Source of the DNA: Jiangella alba
GTDB taxonomy: Bacteria > Actinomycetota > Actinomycetes > Jiangellales > Jiangellaceae
Direction: 5' to 3'
Length of the DNA: 64,000 nucleotides
NCBI RefSeq assembly: GCF_900106035.1
Contig: NZ_FNUC01000003.1
Location: 1 to 64,000 of the forward strand
The notes under the pieces were generated by a model. The model was given only the letters and a program-made list of their open reading frames with translations. It searched no databases and was not told the DNA's origin. The stretch's first letter is position 1. Every line of letters begins with the position of its first letter. The translations under genes and the position numbers were made by a program. Of this stretch, positions 58,877 to 64,000 are shown piece by piece.

Positions 58877-60658
58877 TCAGCCTTCGATCGTGCAGATGAC
58901 GGCGCCGTTCGCGATGGTCGCACCGACCTCGGCGGTCAGCCCGGTGACCGTGCCGGCCTTGTGCGCCGTGATGGGCTGCTCCATCTTCATCGCCTCCATG
59001 ACGACGACGACGTCACCTTCGGCGACGCTCTGGCCGTCCTCGGCGACCACCTTGATGATGGTCCCCTGCATCGGCGACGTGAGCGCGTCGCCGCCGGCCG
59101 CGGCCGCACCGGCCCGCCCGGACGAGCGCCGCACCGGCCGCCGGGCCGCCCCGGCCCCCGCGCCGACGAGGGCGGACGAGCCCAGCCCGGCCGGCAGCAC
59201 GACCTCCAGCCGCTTGCCGCCGATCTCGACGGTGATGCGCTCGCGCGCGTCGTCACCCTCCGGCGCGGCGTCGGCGGCGAACGGCGCGAACGGGTTCGTC
59301 CACTCGGTCTCGATCCAGCGGGTGTGCACGGCGAACGGCTCGTCGTCGGCGGCGGGGACGAAGGCGGGGTCGTCGAGGACGGCGCGGTGGAACGGGATGA
59401 CCGTGGCCAGGCCGCCGACCTCGAACTCGGCCAGCGCCCGCCGCGCCCGCTCGACCGCCTGACGCCGCGAGGCGCCGGTGACCACCAGCTTGGCCAGCAG
59501 GGAGTCGAAGTTCTGCCCGACGACGCTGCCCGCCTCGACGCCGGCGTCGACGCGCACGCCCGGTCCGGACGGCGGCCGGAACGTGGTGACGGCGCCCGGG
59601 GTGGGCAGGAAGTTGCGCCCGGGGTCCTCGCCGTTGATGCGGAACTCGATCGAGTGCCCGCGCACGACCGGGTCGTCGTAGCCCAGTTCCTCGCCCTCGG
59701 CGACGCGGAACATCTCACGGACGAGGTCGAGGCCGGTGACCTCCTCGGTGACCGGGTGCTCGACCTGCAGCCGGGTGTTGACCTCGAGGAACGAGATGGT
59801 GCCGTCGAGGCCGACCAGGAACTCGCAGGTGCCGGCGCCGACGTAGCCGGCCTCGCGCAGGATGGCCTTGGACGCGCGGTACAGCTCGGCGTTCTGCTCG
59901 TCGGTGAGGAATGGCGCCGGCGCCTCCTCGACCAGCTTCTGGTGCCGCCGCTGCAGCGAGCAGTCGCGGGTCGAGACGACGACGACGTTGCCGTGGCGGT
60001 CGGCCAGGCACTGGGTCTCGACGTGGCGCGGGCGGTCGAGGTAGCGCTCGACGAAGCACTCGCCGCGGCCGAACGCCGCGACGGCCTCGCGCACCGCGGA
60101 CTCGTACAGGTCGGGGATCTCGTCCAGCGTGCGGGCCACCTTGAGGCCGCGCCCGCCGCCGCCGAAGGCGGCCTTGATGGCGACCGGCAGCCCGTGCTCC
60201 TCGGCGAACGCGACGACCTCGGCGGCGCCGGTGACGGGGTCGGAGCTGCCGGCGACGAGCGGTGCGCCGGCCCGCGCGGCGATGTGCCGGGCGCTGACCT
60301 TGTCGCCCAGTGCGGTGATGGCGGCCGGCGGCGGGCCGATCCAGACCAGCCCGGCGTCGAGGACGGCCTGCGCGAACCCGGCGTTCTCGGCGAGGAAGCC
60401 GTAGCCGGGGTGGACGGCGTCGGCGCCGGAGCGCGCGGCGACGTCGAGCAGCTTCGCGATGTCGAGGTAGGTCTCGGCGGCGGTCTCGCCGCCGAGCGCG
60501 TACGCCTCGTCGGCGAGCCGGGCGTGCGGCGCGTCGCGGTCGCCGTCGGCGTAGACGGCCACGCTGGTGAGGCCGCCGTCGCGGCAGGCGCGGATGACCC
60601 GCACCGCGATCTCGCCCCGGTTGGCCACGAGAACCTTGCTGATCCGGCGGTACTCCAC
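58877..60658 (-). CDS. Acetyl-/propionyl-CoA carboxylase alpha subunit (biotin carboxylase + BCCP)
   Basis: A 593-residue two-domain subunit. The biotin carboxylase starts '[22 protein letters not shown]', with the ATP-grasp lid '[26 protein letters not shown]' (quoted in part), '[17 protein letters not shown]' and '[22 protein letters not shown]'. A linker leads to the C-terminal biotinyl domain with '[19 protein letters not shown]', the biotin-accepting Lys being in 'AMKM'. This is the AccA/AccA3 type of actinomycetes that pairs with separate carboxyltransferase beta subunits (not in the window) to make malonyl- or methylmalonyl-CoA. Confidence 0.96.
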
Positions 60659-60708: not shown

Positions 60709-60737
60709 GCAACCCGCGCGGCCGGTGCTGCGTGTTC
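60709..60737 (+). promoter_or_regulatory. ECF-type promoter before sigma gene 1
   Basis: GCAACC (60709-60714) and CGTGTTC (60731-60737) are separated by exactly 16 bp, 36 bp before the ATG. The same two boxes at the same spacing precede sigma gene 2 (62685-62713), although the spacers differ. Confidence 0.65.
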
Positions 60738-60773
60738 ACGGCAATGACGCGATACGGGCAGAGCGGGGTCGTG

Positions 60774-61340
60774 ATGCTAATACAGTCCCCTGACGGGGAA
60801 ACCGCACCGGCCGTGGGCGCGACGGTGATGGCGGGCCGCATCGAGCCGGACGAGGCGACGATGGATTTCGAGGAGTTCGCCCGGGCCAGTCTGCCCGGTC
60901 TGCTGCGCTATGGACACGCGCTGACGGGGTCGCCGCACGACGCGGCCGACCTCGTGCAGACAGCGCTGGAGAAGGCCGGCGCCCGGTGGTCGAAGATCAC
61001 CCGGCACGACGCCGACCCGATCGCCTACGTGCGGCGATCGATGGCCAACGCGCACGTGAGCCGCTGGCGGCGGCGCCGGCGCGAGGTGCTGGTCGACGAG
61101 TTCCCGGACCAGGGCGTGGCCCTGCCGGACCGCCTCGACGGCGAGCCGCTCTGGCACGCGCTGGCCGAACTGCCGCCGCGGCAGCGAGCCGTGGTGGTGC
61201 TGCGCTACTACGAGGACCTGTCCGAGGCGGAGATCGCCGCGGCTCTGGGCATCACCGCGGGCACGGTGAAGAGCCAGGCGAGCAAGGCACTGACGAAGTT
61301 GAGGGCGAGCATGTCCTCGGTGGAGGGACGAGACCGATGA
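60774..61340 (+). CDS. SigE-family ECF RNA polymerase sigma factor 1
   Basis: A 188-residue sigma factor. Region 2 is around 'FEEFARASLPGLLRYGHALTGSPHDAADLVQTALEK' (quoted in part), region 4 around 'LPPRQRAVVVLRYYEDLSEAEIAAALGITAGTVKSQASKAL'. It belongs to the group named SigE family in actinomycetes. The start is uncertain (ATG 60774 or GTG 60771; an inner ATG at 'MDFEEF' is possible). The upper start is preferred because the N-terminal segment is conserved in paralogue 2 with only a frame-preserving 3-nt gap. It is coupled (ATGA) to the next gene, and the ECF-type promoter suggests autoregulation. Confidence 0.9.
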   Translation: MLIQSPDGETAPAVGATVMAGRIEPDEATMDFEEFARASLPGLLRYGHALTGSPHDAADLVQTALEKAGARWSKITRHDADPIAYVRRSMANAHVSRWRRRRREVLVDEFPDQGVALPDRLDGEPLWHALAELPPRQRAVVVLRYYEDLSEAEIAAALGITAGTVKSQASKALTKLRASMSSVEGRDR

Positions 61341-62680
61341 ACGACTTCGACGACGATCTGCGCCGCCTGCTGGGTGACGACCGGCTCGCGCTGACACCGC
61401 GCGCCGACGCCGTCGACCGCATCGTCAGGGGCGCCCGGCGCCGTCGCGCCGCACGGGTGGCCGCGACCGCGGCGGGCAGCGTGGGTCTGGTGGCCGCGGT
61501 GACGGTGGGATCGTTCGCGGTGGCCGGCCAGTTCACCGCCGCGCCGGACCCCGTGCAGCCGGCCGAGACCCCGTCCGTCCCGACCGACGACCCGACGCCG
61601 GCACCCAGCGAGACCCCGACGGCCGCCGCGCCGGTGGTGGTCTACCCGAACGAGGGCATCGACGGCCTCACCGTCGGCACGAAGCTGGCCGACCTGGAGA
61701 ACGTCGACGGCGTCGAGATCACCCGGTACGCGCCGGAGGACGGCTACAGCGAGCTCTGCTACGGCGAGTACCGCAGCCCGAGCGCGCACGGGTACATCTC
61801 GACCCGGGGAACGTTCGGGATGGTCCCGGACGACCTGGACCCGTACTACGAGGTGTCCACCGTGAGCTTCGACGTGCCGGTGGCGACCCCCGAGGGGATC
61901 ACGCCGGGCGCCACCGAGACCGACCTCTTCGCGGCGTACCCGAACCTCGATCTCTACGGCAAGCCCGACGACGGGCACCGGGCGGTGTTCGAGGGCGAGG
62001 ACATCATCCAGCGCGGCTGGGACTTCCCGGTGACCGGCGGCGTCGTCACCGAGATCGTCATGGAGGGCCTGCACCAGTGTCAGAAGGCGCCGATCCTCGA
62101 CCCGCCCACCGGCGGCGACGAGGGCGAGGAGGAGCCGGCCGACCCGCCGGACGGCACCGAGCCGGCCGACGACCCCACCGAGACGCCCGGCGACACCGAC
62201 ACACCCGGTGGCGGCACCGAGGCCGGGTGGAGCGTCGACGGCGACGAGATCCTGTCCCCGATCCGGCTCGGCATGACGCTGGCGGAGCTGCAGGCGGTCG
62301 AGGGCGTGCAGATCAGCACCGACGGCGGCGGCGACGGGATCTGCTACGGCAGCTTCACGCTGGGCACGCAGACCGGCGCGATCTCGGTGCGGCGCGACTT
62401 CGGCAGCGACGACCCGCCGGAGCCCGCCGGGTCGGACGACGACTACCGCGTCACGTACTTCTCGACCAGCGACCCGGCCGCGACGACGCCGCTCGGGATC
62501 GGCCCGGGGTCGACCTTCGAGCAGGTGCGCGAGGCCTACCCGGACGTCGTCACCGGCGACACCTTCGACGCCTACGTGCCCGACGCGGGGAACCCGGCGG
62601 TGCGCTGGCTGTTCGTGTCGGGCGACGGCGAGACGGTCGCGAGCCTGGGCCTCGACGCCGGCCAGAACTGCTGGGGCTGA
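61337..62680 (+). CDS. Membrane partner protein 1 of the sigma module (duplicated domain)
   Basis: A 447-residue protein. A ~35-residue basic cytoplasmic part with conserved start 'MNDFDDDLRRLLGDDRLAL' leads to one membrane helix (~37-60). Outside, Pro/Thr-rich linkers separate two copies of a ~60-residue domain, near residues 107-165 and 305-360, with the pattern V-G-x-K/M-L-A-(D/E)-L ... V-x-G-V-x-I ... CYG-x-(F/Y) ... G-(Y/A)-IS-x-R. Each has one conserved Cys in CYG. There is no zinc-finger anti-sigma motif. The gene order and start overlap suggest it is the signal-sensing or anti-sigma partner (inference). Confidence 0.75.
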   Translation: MNDFDDDLRRLLGDDRLALTPRADAVDRIVRGARRRRAARVAATAAGSVGLVAAVTVGSFAVAGQFTAAPDPVQPAETPSVPTDDPTPAPSETPTAAAPVVVYPNEGIDGLTVGTKLADLENVDGVEITRYAPEDGYSELCYGEYRSPSAHGYISTRGTFGMVPDDLDPYYEVSTVSFDVPVATPEGITPGATETDLFAAYPNLDLYGKPDDGHRAVFEGEDIIQRGWDFPVTGGVVTEIVMEGLHQCQKAPILDPPTGGDEGEEEPADPPDGTEPADDPTETPGDTDTPGGGTEAGWSVDGDEILSPIRLGMTLAELQAVEGVQISTDGGGDGICYGSFTLGTQTGAISVRRDFGSDDPPEPAGSDDDYRVTYFSTSDPAATTPLGIGPGSTFEQVREAYPDVVTGDTFDAYVPDAGNPAVRWLFVSGDGETVASLGLDAGQNCWG

Positions 62681-62684
62681 TCGA

Positions 62685-62713
62685 GCAACCAACCGGCCCG
62701 TCCGCGCGTGTTC
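62685..62713 (+). promoter_or_regulatory. ECF-type promoter before sigma gene 2
   Basis: GCAACC (62685-62690), a 16-bp spacer, then CGTGTTC (62707-62713), 37 bp before the ATG. Boxes and spacing are identical to those before sigma gene 1. It begins 4 bp after the stop of the first membrane-partner gene, so module 2 has its own promoter. Confidence 0.65.
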
Positions 62714-62750
62714 CTGATCAACGAGGCAGGGACGGCGAAGCGGGGTCGTG

Positions 62751-63314
62751 ATGTTCATTCAGTCCCCAGGCGGGGAGGCCGCACCGGCCGTGGGCGCGAC
62801 GGTGGTGGGCCGCTCGGAGACGGGCGAGGCGACGGTGGAGTTCGAGGACTTCGTCCGGGCGAGTCTGCCCGGGCTGCTGCGGTACGGACACGCGCTGACG
62901 GGGTCGCCGCACGACGGCGCCGACCTCGTGCAGACGGTGCTGGAGAAGGTGGGGTCGCGCTGGGCGAAGCTGATGCGCCAGGACGTCGACCCGCTCGCCT
63001 ACGTGCGCCGGTCCATGGCCAACGCGCACGTGAGCCGCTGGCGGCGGCGCCGGCGTGAGGTGCTGGTCGACGAGTTCCCGGAGCGCGCGGTCATGCCGCC
63101 CGACCGCCTCGACGGCGAGCCGGTGTGGCAGGCGCTGGCCCAGCTGCCGCCGCGGCAGCGGGCGGTGCTGGTGCTGCGCTACTACGAGGACTTCTCCGAG
63201 GCGCAGATCGCGGCGACGCTCGGTATCTCCGCGGGCACGGTGAAGAGCCAGGCGAGCAAGGCGCTGGCGAAGTTGAGGGCGAGTCTGTCCTCGGTGGAGG
63301 GAAGCGACCGATGA
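62751..63314 (+). CDS. SigE-family ECF RNA polymerase sigma factor 2
   Basis: A 187-residue paralogue of sigma factor 1. The two are near identical across region 2.3-2.4 ('YVRRSMANAHVSRWRRRRRE' is the same in both) and in region 4 ('AGTVKSQASKAL'), and differ mostly in the linker ('ERAVMPPDRLDG') and N-terminus. It begins with ATG 62751 (GTG 62748 is the alternative). The near-identical DNA-binding regions suggest overlapping promoter specificity, and both genes carry the same upstream boxes. Coupled to the following partner gene by ATGA. Confidence 0.9.
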   Translation: MFIQSPGGEAAPAVGATVVGRSETGEATVEFEDFVRASLPGLLRYGHALTGSPHDGADLVQTVLEKVGSRWAKLMRQDVDPLAYVRRSMANAHVSRWRRRRREVLVDEFPERAVMPPDRLDGEPVWQALAQLPPRQRAVLVLRYYEDFSEAQIAATLGISAGTVKSQASKALAKLRASLSSVEGSDR

Positions 63315-64000
63315 ACGAGTTCGACGACGAGTTGCGCCGGATCTTCGGCGACGACCGGCTCGCGGTGCCGCCCGGCTCGGACGCGGTCGGGCGCATCGTC
63401 CGCGGTGCCCGCCGACGGCGCACCGTGCGCATGGTCGCCTCCGCCGCGGGCTCGGTCGGCCTGGTGGCGGCGGTCGCGTTCGGCTCGATGGCCGTCACCG
63501 GGCAGTTCACCGCGGCGCCCACGTACGAGCCGCAGCCGGCCGAGTCGCCGGAGGTCAGGCCGGCGCCCGAGCTGACGCCCGACAGCGAGACGCCGCCCAA
63601 GGGCGCGGCCGCCCCGTCCGGCGACATCACCGGCGACGCGACCGGCGAGGCCAGTGGCCCGTCCACGGCCGACCCGGCGACGGAGCAGCCCATCGGCGCC
63701 GACCCGGGCGGCGAGGCGTCCGGCGACGTCCCCGAACCGGTCGACGTCAGCGGGTTGCCGCTGTTCGACCCGGCCGCGCCGTTCGACGGCGTCCAGGTGC
63801 GCATGACGCTGGCCGAGCTGGCCAGTGTCCCCGGGATCGAGATCACCCGGCTGAGCAGCGACCCCCGCAGCATCTCGCCGGCCGCCTGCTACGGCTCGTT
63901 CCGCACGGCGACCTCGCACGGCTACATCTCGCTGCGCGGTGCCTGGGGGAGCCCGCCGGACGACCCGGCCGAACTGTACGCCGCGTACGAGGTCGCGACC
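63311..64000 (+). CDS. Membrane partner protein 2 of the sigma module (3' end cut off)
   Basis: The first 230 codons are visible; the gene runs off the right edge. It opens 'MNEFDDELRRIFGDDRLAV', followed by a membrane helix (~37-60) and a long Pro/Glu/Ala-rich linker that differs from partner 1 ('GDITGDATGEASGPSTADPA'). The first copy of the CYG domain begins at ~155: 'VRMTLAELASVPGIEITRL', 'CYGSFRTATSHGYISLRG'. It is clearly paralogous to the protein at 61337, with the extracytoplasmic linker diverging fastest. Whether it has the second domain copy cannot be seen. Confidence 0.85.
   Translation, partial: MNEFDDELRRIFGDDRLAVPPGSDAVGRIVRGARRRRTVRMVASAAGSVGLVAAVAFGSMAVTGQFTAAPTYEPQPAESPEVRPAPELTPDSETPPKGAAAPSGDITGDATGEASGPSTADPATEQPIGADPGGEASGDVPEPVDVSGLPLFDPAAPFDGVQVRMTLAELASVPGIEITRLSSDPRSISPAACYGSFRTATSHGYISLRGAWGSPPDDPAELYAAYEVAT

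Follow-up and report, generated by a model that had tools for sequence, protein, structure and literature searches.

Tandem SigE-family sigma factor and membrane-partner modules of Jiangella alba look like one switch with two detectors

At 60709-64735 of a Jiangella alba contig, a two-gene module has been duplicated in tandem, in which the gene for an ECF sigma factor is followed by one for a one-span membrane protein with a predicted anti-sigma role. Because the two copies carry the same start signal but different outer sensors, they look like one stress-response switch equipped with two detectors, and we consider it probable that a single promoter specificity with two sensor inputs explains the tandem modules. 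An ECF module of a kind common in actinobacteria is present here twice in a row, and its promoter logic is ordinary; no named family covers the sensor domain or the presumptive sigma-holding domain, and the overall design is already known.

Two modules behind identical boxes

The window analysed here is the stretch of 64,000 nucleotides at positions 1 to 64,000 of the forward strand of contig NZ_FNUC01000003.1 (RefSeq assembly GCF_900106035.1); this contig measures 3.3 Mb, the window lying at its left end, and the genome 7.68 Mb. As a first-pass annotation of this DNA had recognised, it holds two adjacent sigma/membrane-partner units, each preceded by GCAACC-N16-CGTGTTC; the extent of 60709-64000 given there is too short, since the last gene exceeds the window (Table 1). 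The stop codon of sigma 1 and the start codon of partner 1 overlap in an ATGA, and the same sigma/partner overlap is found in 15/15 copies of the genus.

Table 1. Features of the tandem locus and its borders (window coordinates unless a locus is named)
Feature	Position	Strand	Description
Biotin-carboxylase-type gene, divergent	58877..60658	-	Left border of the conserved slot; named from its own sequence
Promoter, module 1 (putative)	60709..60737	+	GCAACC (-35), 16-bp spacer, CGTGTTC (-10)
Sigma 1	60774..61340	+	188 aa, SigE-family ECF sigma; start ATG 60774, GTG 60771 possible
Partner 1	61337..62680	+	447 aa; anti-sigma-like domain at the N-terminus (1-40), TM (about 41-66), D1, D2
Outer domain D1, partner 1	61634..62089 (residues about 108-248)	+	Two Cys, residues 141 and 248
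Outer domain D2, partner 1	62228..62677 (residues about 301-447)	+	Two Cys, residues 336 and 445
Promoter, module 2 (putative)	62685..62713	+	GCAACC, 16-bp spacer, CGTGTTC; starts 5 bp past the partner 1 stop
Sigma 2	62751..63314	+	187 aa, SigE-family ECF sigma
Partner 2	63311..64000 (window); true end at contig position 64735	+	474 aa; layout of partner 1 with longer linker, D1 and D2
MerR-type regulator	L005:6243-6626	-	Between the module and the acyl-CoA dehydrogenase / carboxyltransferase cluster

Both sigma factors score above the curated cut-off of the SigE family TIGR02983 (173.4 bits for sigma 1 and 167.4 bits for sigma 2, against 141.55), as do 14 sigma factors of this genome in total, and both carry Sigma70_r2 and Sigma70_r4_2 as their only Pfam domains, about 20 residues apart, which places them in group IV (ECF). 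They are 80% identical to each other; residues 84-110, at the end of region 2, are identical, and region 4.2 shows few, conservative changes, in agreement with the near-identity of the DNA-binding regions reported in the first pass. Given a dN of 0.11 and a dS of 0.30 between the copies, the duplication appears to be an older and constrained one, not fresh.

GCAACC-N16-CGTGTTC occurs twice in the window (0.02 matches expected by chance), both times before the modules, and the genome-wide search that had been proposed for the box pair returned four matches, two of which are the modules' own. The distances from box end to ATG (36 bp in module 1 and 37 bp in module 2) are as first described, and so is the divergence of the spacers around unchanged boxes, the two copies agreeing at 6/16 spacer positions versus 13/13 box positions. 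All 15 intact module copies of Jiangella have GCAACC and GCGT without any change, always with a spacer of exactly 16 nucleotides. The looser pair CAAC-N15..18-CGT[CG] lies upstream of 17 of 43 SigE-family sigma genes, against 0.85 expected (counted within 200 nt upstream of sigma2, with the expectation taken from mononucleotide shuffles; 29 genes from across the class and the 14 of this genome, both modules included), and the strict form CAACC-N14..17-GCGT[CG] is present at 8 of 19 further SigE-like loci, against 0.06 expected; sequence searches supplied both sets, which therefore overlap to some degree in what they can show.

AAC/CGT boxes, an adjacent co-transcribed anti-sigma gene, and positive autoregulation are regarded as hallmarks of ECF systems (PMC8103513), and boxes of the AAC/CGT type stand upstream of the sigma operon in both modules. 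Because the looser pair recurs before SigE-family sigma genes across the class, the module boxes are, on sequence grounds, an ordinary ECF autoregulatory promoter, and their conservation and recurrence, taken together with these hallmarks, indicate that the identical boxes are real and selected, but expected. The selection on the boxes that had been proposed is supported both by the 15 orthologous modules and by the recurrence before SigE-type sigma genes of other families, and recognition by the modules' own sigma factors is the natural reading. The leader RNA was predicted to form no structure more stable than that of shuffled sequences.

A short cytoplasmic domain and paired outer domains

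The partners consist of some 40 basic residues, one TM helix whose cytoplasmic side, judging from the sequence, carries arginines, a linker rich in P/T/D/E, and two outer domains, the N-terminus being cytoplasmic by the positive-inside rule. Searches of Pfam, NCBIfam, and the PDB sequences gave no match for whole partners, and the N-terminal domain matches no known anti-sigma family in sequence. Partners 1 and 2 share 29 of its 40 residues. A profile built from 18 partners found 11 matches to the domain in this genome, all directly after a SigE-family sigma gene, a count that is partly circular because five further partners of this genome contributed to the profile; the other genomes are less affected, and across the 21 genomes with matches at least 42 of 70 lie directly after such a gene. 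The outer parts behind the domain vary, with BNR-like repeats, DUF4232, and others, and this combination of a constant N-terminal domain with varied outer parts is what one would expect if an anti-sigma domain were joined to exchangeable sensors. The domain was modelled with helices at residues 2-11 and 25-46, at low pLDDT. A class I zinc anti-sigma domain (ZAS) is ruled out: no zinc-binding Cys is present in the cytoplasmic part, the 15 genus partners having no Cys before residue 126, and the domain falls short of class I domains in length. Translation from an internal start at residue 30 is impossible in one copy (G008b), which has GTC there, and the indels in the first 29 codons of the partners, all multiples of three, likewise argue against it.

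We found no curated family that describes such ATGA-overlapping partners, abundant though they are beside SigE-family sigma genes in Actinomycetia. The common sigma-linked domain of about 40 residues would, together with the common promoter, allow such systems to be recognised and their sensors to be classified.

The outer domains, one or two per partner and two in each partner of this locus, span about 140 residues and contain exactly two cysteines each; because there is no other Cys in any of the 15 genus partners, one disulfide per domain is suggested. The repeat had initially been described as a CYG motif domain of about 60 residues, a description that this longer unit with its two conserved cysteines replaces. 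The divergence of the outer parts noted at the same time is borne out, with 64/141 identical residues in D1 and 63/147 in D2 (about 43-45%), compared with 29/40 at the N-termini. Pfam gave no match above cut-off for the outer domains (the best, BLIP, reached an E of 0.12 in one member), and a PDB sequence search with the partner and the separate domains gave none. Modelled alone with AlphaFold, D2 reached a mean pLDDT of 85.6 and a pTM of 0.82, and its best full-domain fold matches were 4ifa (Z 8.6), YjgB/DUF4309 (Z 8.0, 113 residues), and YfeY (Z 7.5, 117 residues), while half of the D1 model resembles BLIP and BamE at a Z of about 6 (BLIP 6.2); none of the fold matches to an outer domain exceeded Z 9. 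As these values are near those of common arrangements, the predicted link to the YjgB/DUF4309-type fold is a lead and no family assignment. The suggestion that this may be a new sensor domain therefore holds in part: no sequence family of Pfam, NCBIfam, or the PDB matches it, but its predicted fold resembles YjgB/DUF4309 and it has a relative in Amycolatopsis. In Amycolatopsis sp. GM8 (L122:3393-4828), a sigma factor 66% identical to sigma 1 is accompanied by a partner in which a domain related to the outer domain occurs once, with CCAACC-N16-CGTC upstream.

Distribution and history in the genus

The module occupies the same locus in 11 of the 12 Jiangella genomes examined, once or twice per genome. 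Its slot is bordered on the left by the divergent biotin-carboxylase-type gene, an ortholog of which lies beside the module in 11/11 genomes, and on the right by the MerR gene and an acyl-CoA dehydrogenase / carboxyltransferase cluster, found almost wherever the contig reaches. This cluster, which looks like a leucine-degradation (liu) locus, is the only hint about the signal in the neighbourhood, and it also exists without the module. Elsewhere in the Jiangellaceae, either nothing or unrelated genes are found in the slot. In a module-less Jiangella and in another genus (L214, L215, positions 241-1010, reverse complement) these are genes for a membrane protein and a lipoprotein-like protein, so that insertions may be especially frequent at this site.

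The two-copy state is common to four species, the a and b copies forming separate groups on the sigma tree, and two types of outer part can be told apart with strong support (100/100). J. rhizosphaerae (G002) and one further genome (G001) have a type-b outer part, but their sigma factor and N-terminal domain fall outside the b group. On the sigma-plus-N-terminus tree, a group of all b-type carriers was rejected (p 0.0165, for a group named after the tree had been seen), and one of the b copies with G002 alone was not (p 0.38); on the outer-part tree, placing G002 with the a copies was rejected (p about 1e-12). The history of the outer part thus disagrees in part with that of the sigma factor and N-terminal domain, and an exchange of sensors by recombination between tandem copies is, on balance, likely. 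We tentatively put forward, as a possible generalisation, that a constant unit of sigma factor, short anti-sigma-like domain, and fixed promoter is combined with exchangeable sensors, tandem duplication and recombination between the copies first providing one promoter class with two inputs and then exchanging sensors between lineages.

Several loci depart from the intact arrangement or repeat it elsewhere. In J. muralis (L071:8458-9534 / L117), partner 1 stops after D1 through a frame break and is followed, in another frame, by a D2 remnant that is 94% identical to the D2 of the window. In J. anatolica (L074:6036-6305), a sigma-2-like fragment lacking boxes of its own lies directly behind a truncated partner 1, near a contig end, and may be due to a deletion or to an assembly effect. 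The J. alba genome carries a second tandem pair of SigE-family sigma and membrane-partner modules (contig C3:1707375-1709693; L018, L019, L153), in which each sigma domain has a GCAACCC...CGT pair some 80 nt before it, and similar close module pairs are found in other genomes (G054, contigs C22 and C35; G031, contig C3).

Shared or separate circuits, and known systems

In the mechanism that we propose, the N-terminal domain would tether the sigma factor to the membrane until the disulfide-type outer domains perceive a signal, whereupon the sigma factor would be released and would transcribe the operon that encodes it from GCAACC-N16-CGTGTT. The two copies hardly differ in boxes and DNA-binding regions, so either sigma factor should fire both promoters, and two sensors of different type would feed one amplifying switch. 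Motif searches of the Jiangella genomes found no conserved target besides the modules: the strict motif matched only the module in J. alba, G010, and G001, with one additional site in G008, and the looser motif gave 37 sites in J. alba, most in coding frames and a few scoring non-coding. One of these non-coding sites that is shared between species was rejected as a target, being the end of uvrC, and the GCGTC form gave no obviously shared intergenic site, as judged by eye from codon patterns. As no additional conserved target emerged, the case for one regulon comes down to the two promoters, and the original proposal of one regulon fed by two sensors remains plausible, in view of near-identical DNA-binding regions, identical boxes, and diverged sensors, but gains no further genus-wide target.

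Each copy nevertheless keeps private differences in its sigma factor and N-terminal domain that could insulate the copies from each other, which speaks against a single switch. Two insulated paralogous circuits, in which each sigma factor binds its cognate anti-sigma domain alone and small differences around the -10 box or in the spacer keep the promoters distinct, would be in keeping with copies that have been kept apart, in separate groups of the sigma tree, since before the four two-module species split, and with the private changes that b sigma factors and b N-terminal domains have in common. The spacers, moreover, differ between the two promoters, and ECF promoter selectivity is modulated by spacer sequence according to the title of a paper cited in PMC6767563. 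We regard such insulation as unlikely, since the two copies do not differ in their boxes, in spacer length, or at the end of region 2, show none but conservative changes in region 4.2, and have 29/40 residues of the N-terminal domain in common. That the second copy is redundant, the duplication being without lasting function and on its way to loss or merger, would agree with the 7 of 11 module-bearing genomes that have a single copy or a damaged second one, as well as with the loss of D2 in J. muralis and the sigma fragment behind the truncated partner in J. anatolica; it is improbable in the light of the four species that keep both sigma factors intact, a dN well below dS between the copies, and the retention of boxes at both promoters.

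The remaining readings concern the partner and the boxes. A partner that is merely a co-transcribed envelope protein would account for the missing sequence match to known anti-sigma domains and for a cytoplasmic part free of zinc-finger cysteines, but the strong linkage to SigE-family sigma genes across many different outer domains, the cytoplasmic N-terminus, and the translational overlap make this quite improbable. Although the copies are 84-87% identical in DNA in parts, a merely apparent conservation of the boxes, through recent duplication or chance, is already disfavoured and extremely improbable, as it is at odds with the diverged spacers between unchanged boxes, their constancy over 15 copies, and their recurrence in other families. 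One switch with two sensor inputs is thus the reading that we prefer, and the tandem pair provides a natural test of whether duplicated sigma/anti-sigma pairs share or split a regulon.

Operons of the RpoE-RseA and SigW-RsiW type resemble the Jiangella modules in having two genes, a sigma factor with sigma2 and sigma4 only, an AAC...CGT autoregulatory promoter (hallmarks in PMC8103513), and a one-TM partner with an outer sensor. They differ in that the Jiangella N-terminal domain has only about 40 residues, no zinc-finger Cys, and no sequence match, and in that the locus consists of two adjacent modules with different sensors. The Streptomyces coelicolor SigE, which gave TIGR02983 its name and is ECF39 in PMC8999054, is of the same family, both Jiangella sigma factors lying above its cut-off, and the search for its promoters relied on AAC in the -35 region and TC in the -10 region, with spacers of 16 or 17 bp in the promoter model (PMC6767563). 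Unlike the Jiangella modules, however, it is under the CseBC two-component system and is among the sigma factors not associated with an anti-sigma factor (PMC8999054). Like the class II anti-sigma domain of CnrY from Cupriavidus metallidurans, the Jiangella domain is under 50 residues, and two helices are predicted before or into its TM segment, but with no sequence match found and helices of low confidence the resemblance is one of size only. For D2 and half of D1, the predicted folds are like the alpha/beta domains of YjgB/DUF4309, YfeY, and BLIP/BamE; there is no significant sequence match to these, and the Jiangella domains have a fixed Cys pair each. Finally, paralogous EcfG pairs such as EcfG1 and EcfG2 of Sphingopyxis also place two paralogous ECF sigma factors in one response (PMC8103513), although they belong to another sigma group with another input pathway, and EcfG2 drives EcfG1 hierarchically.
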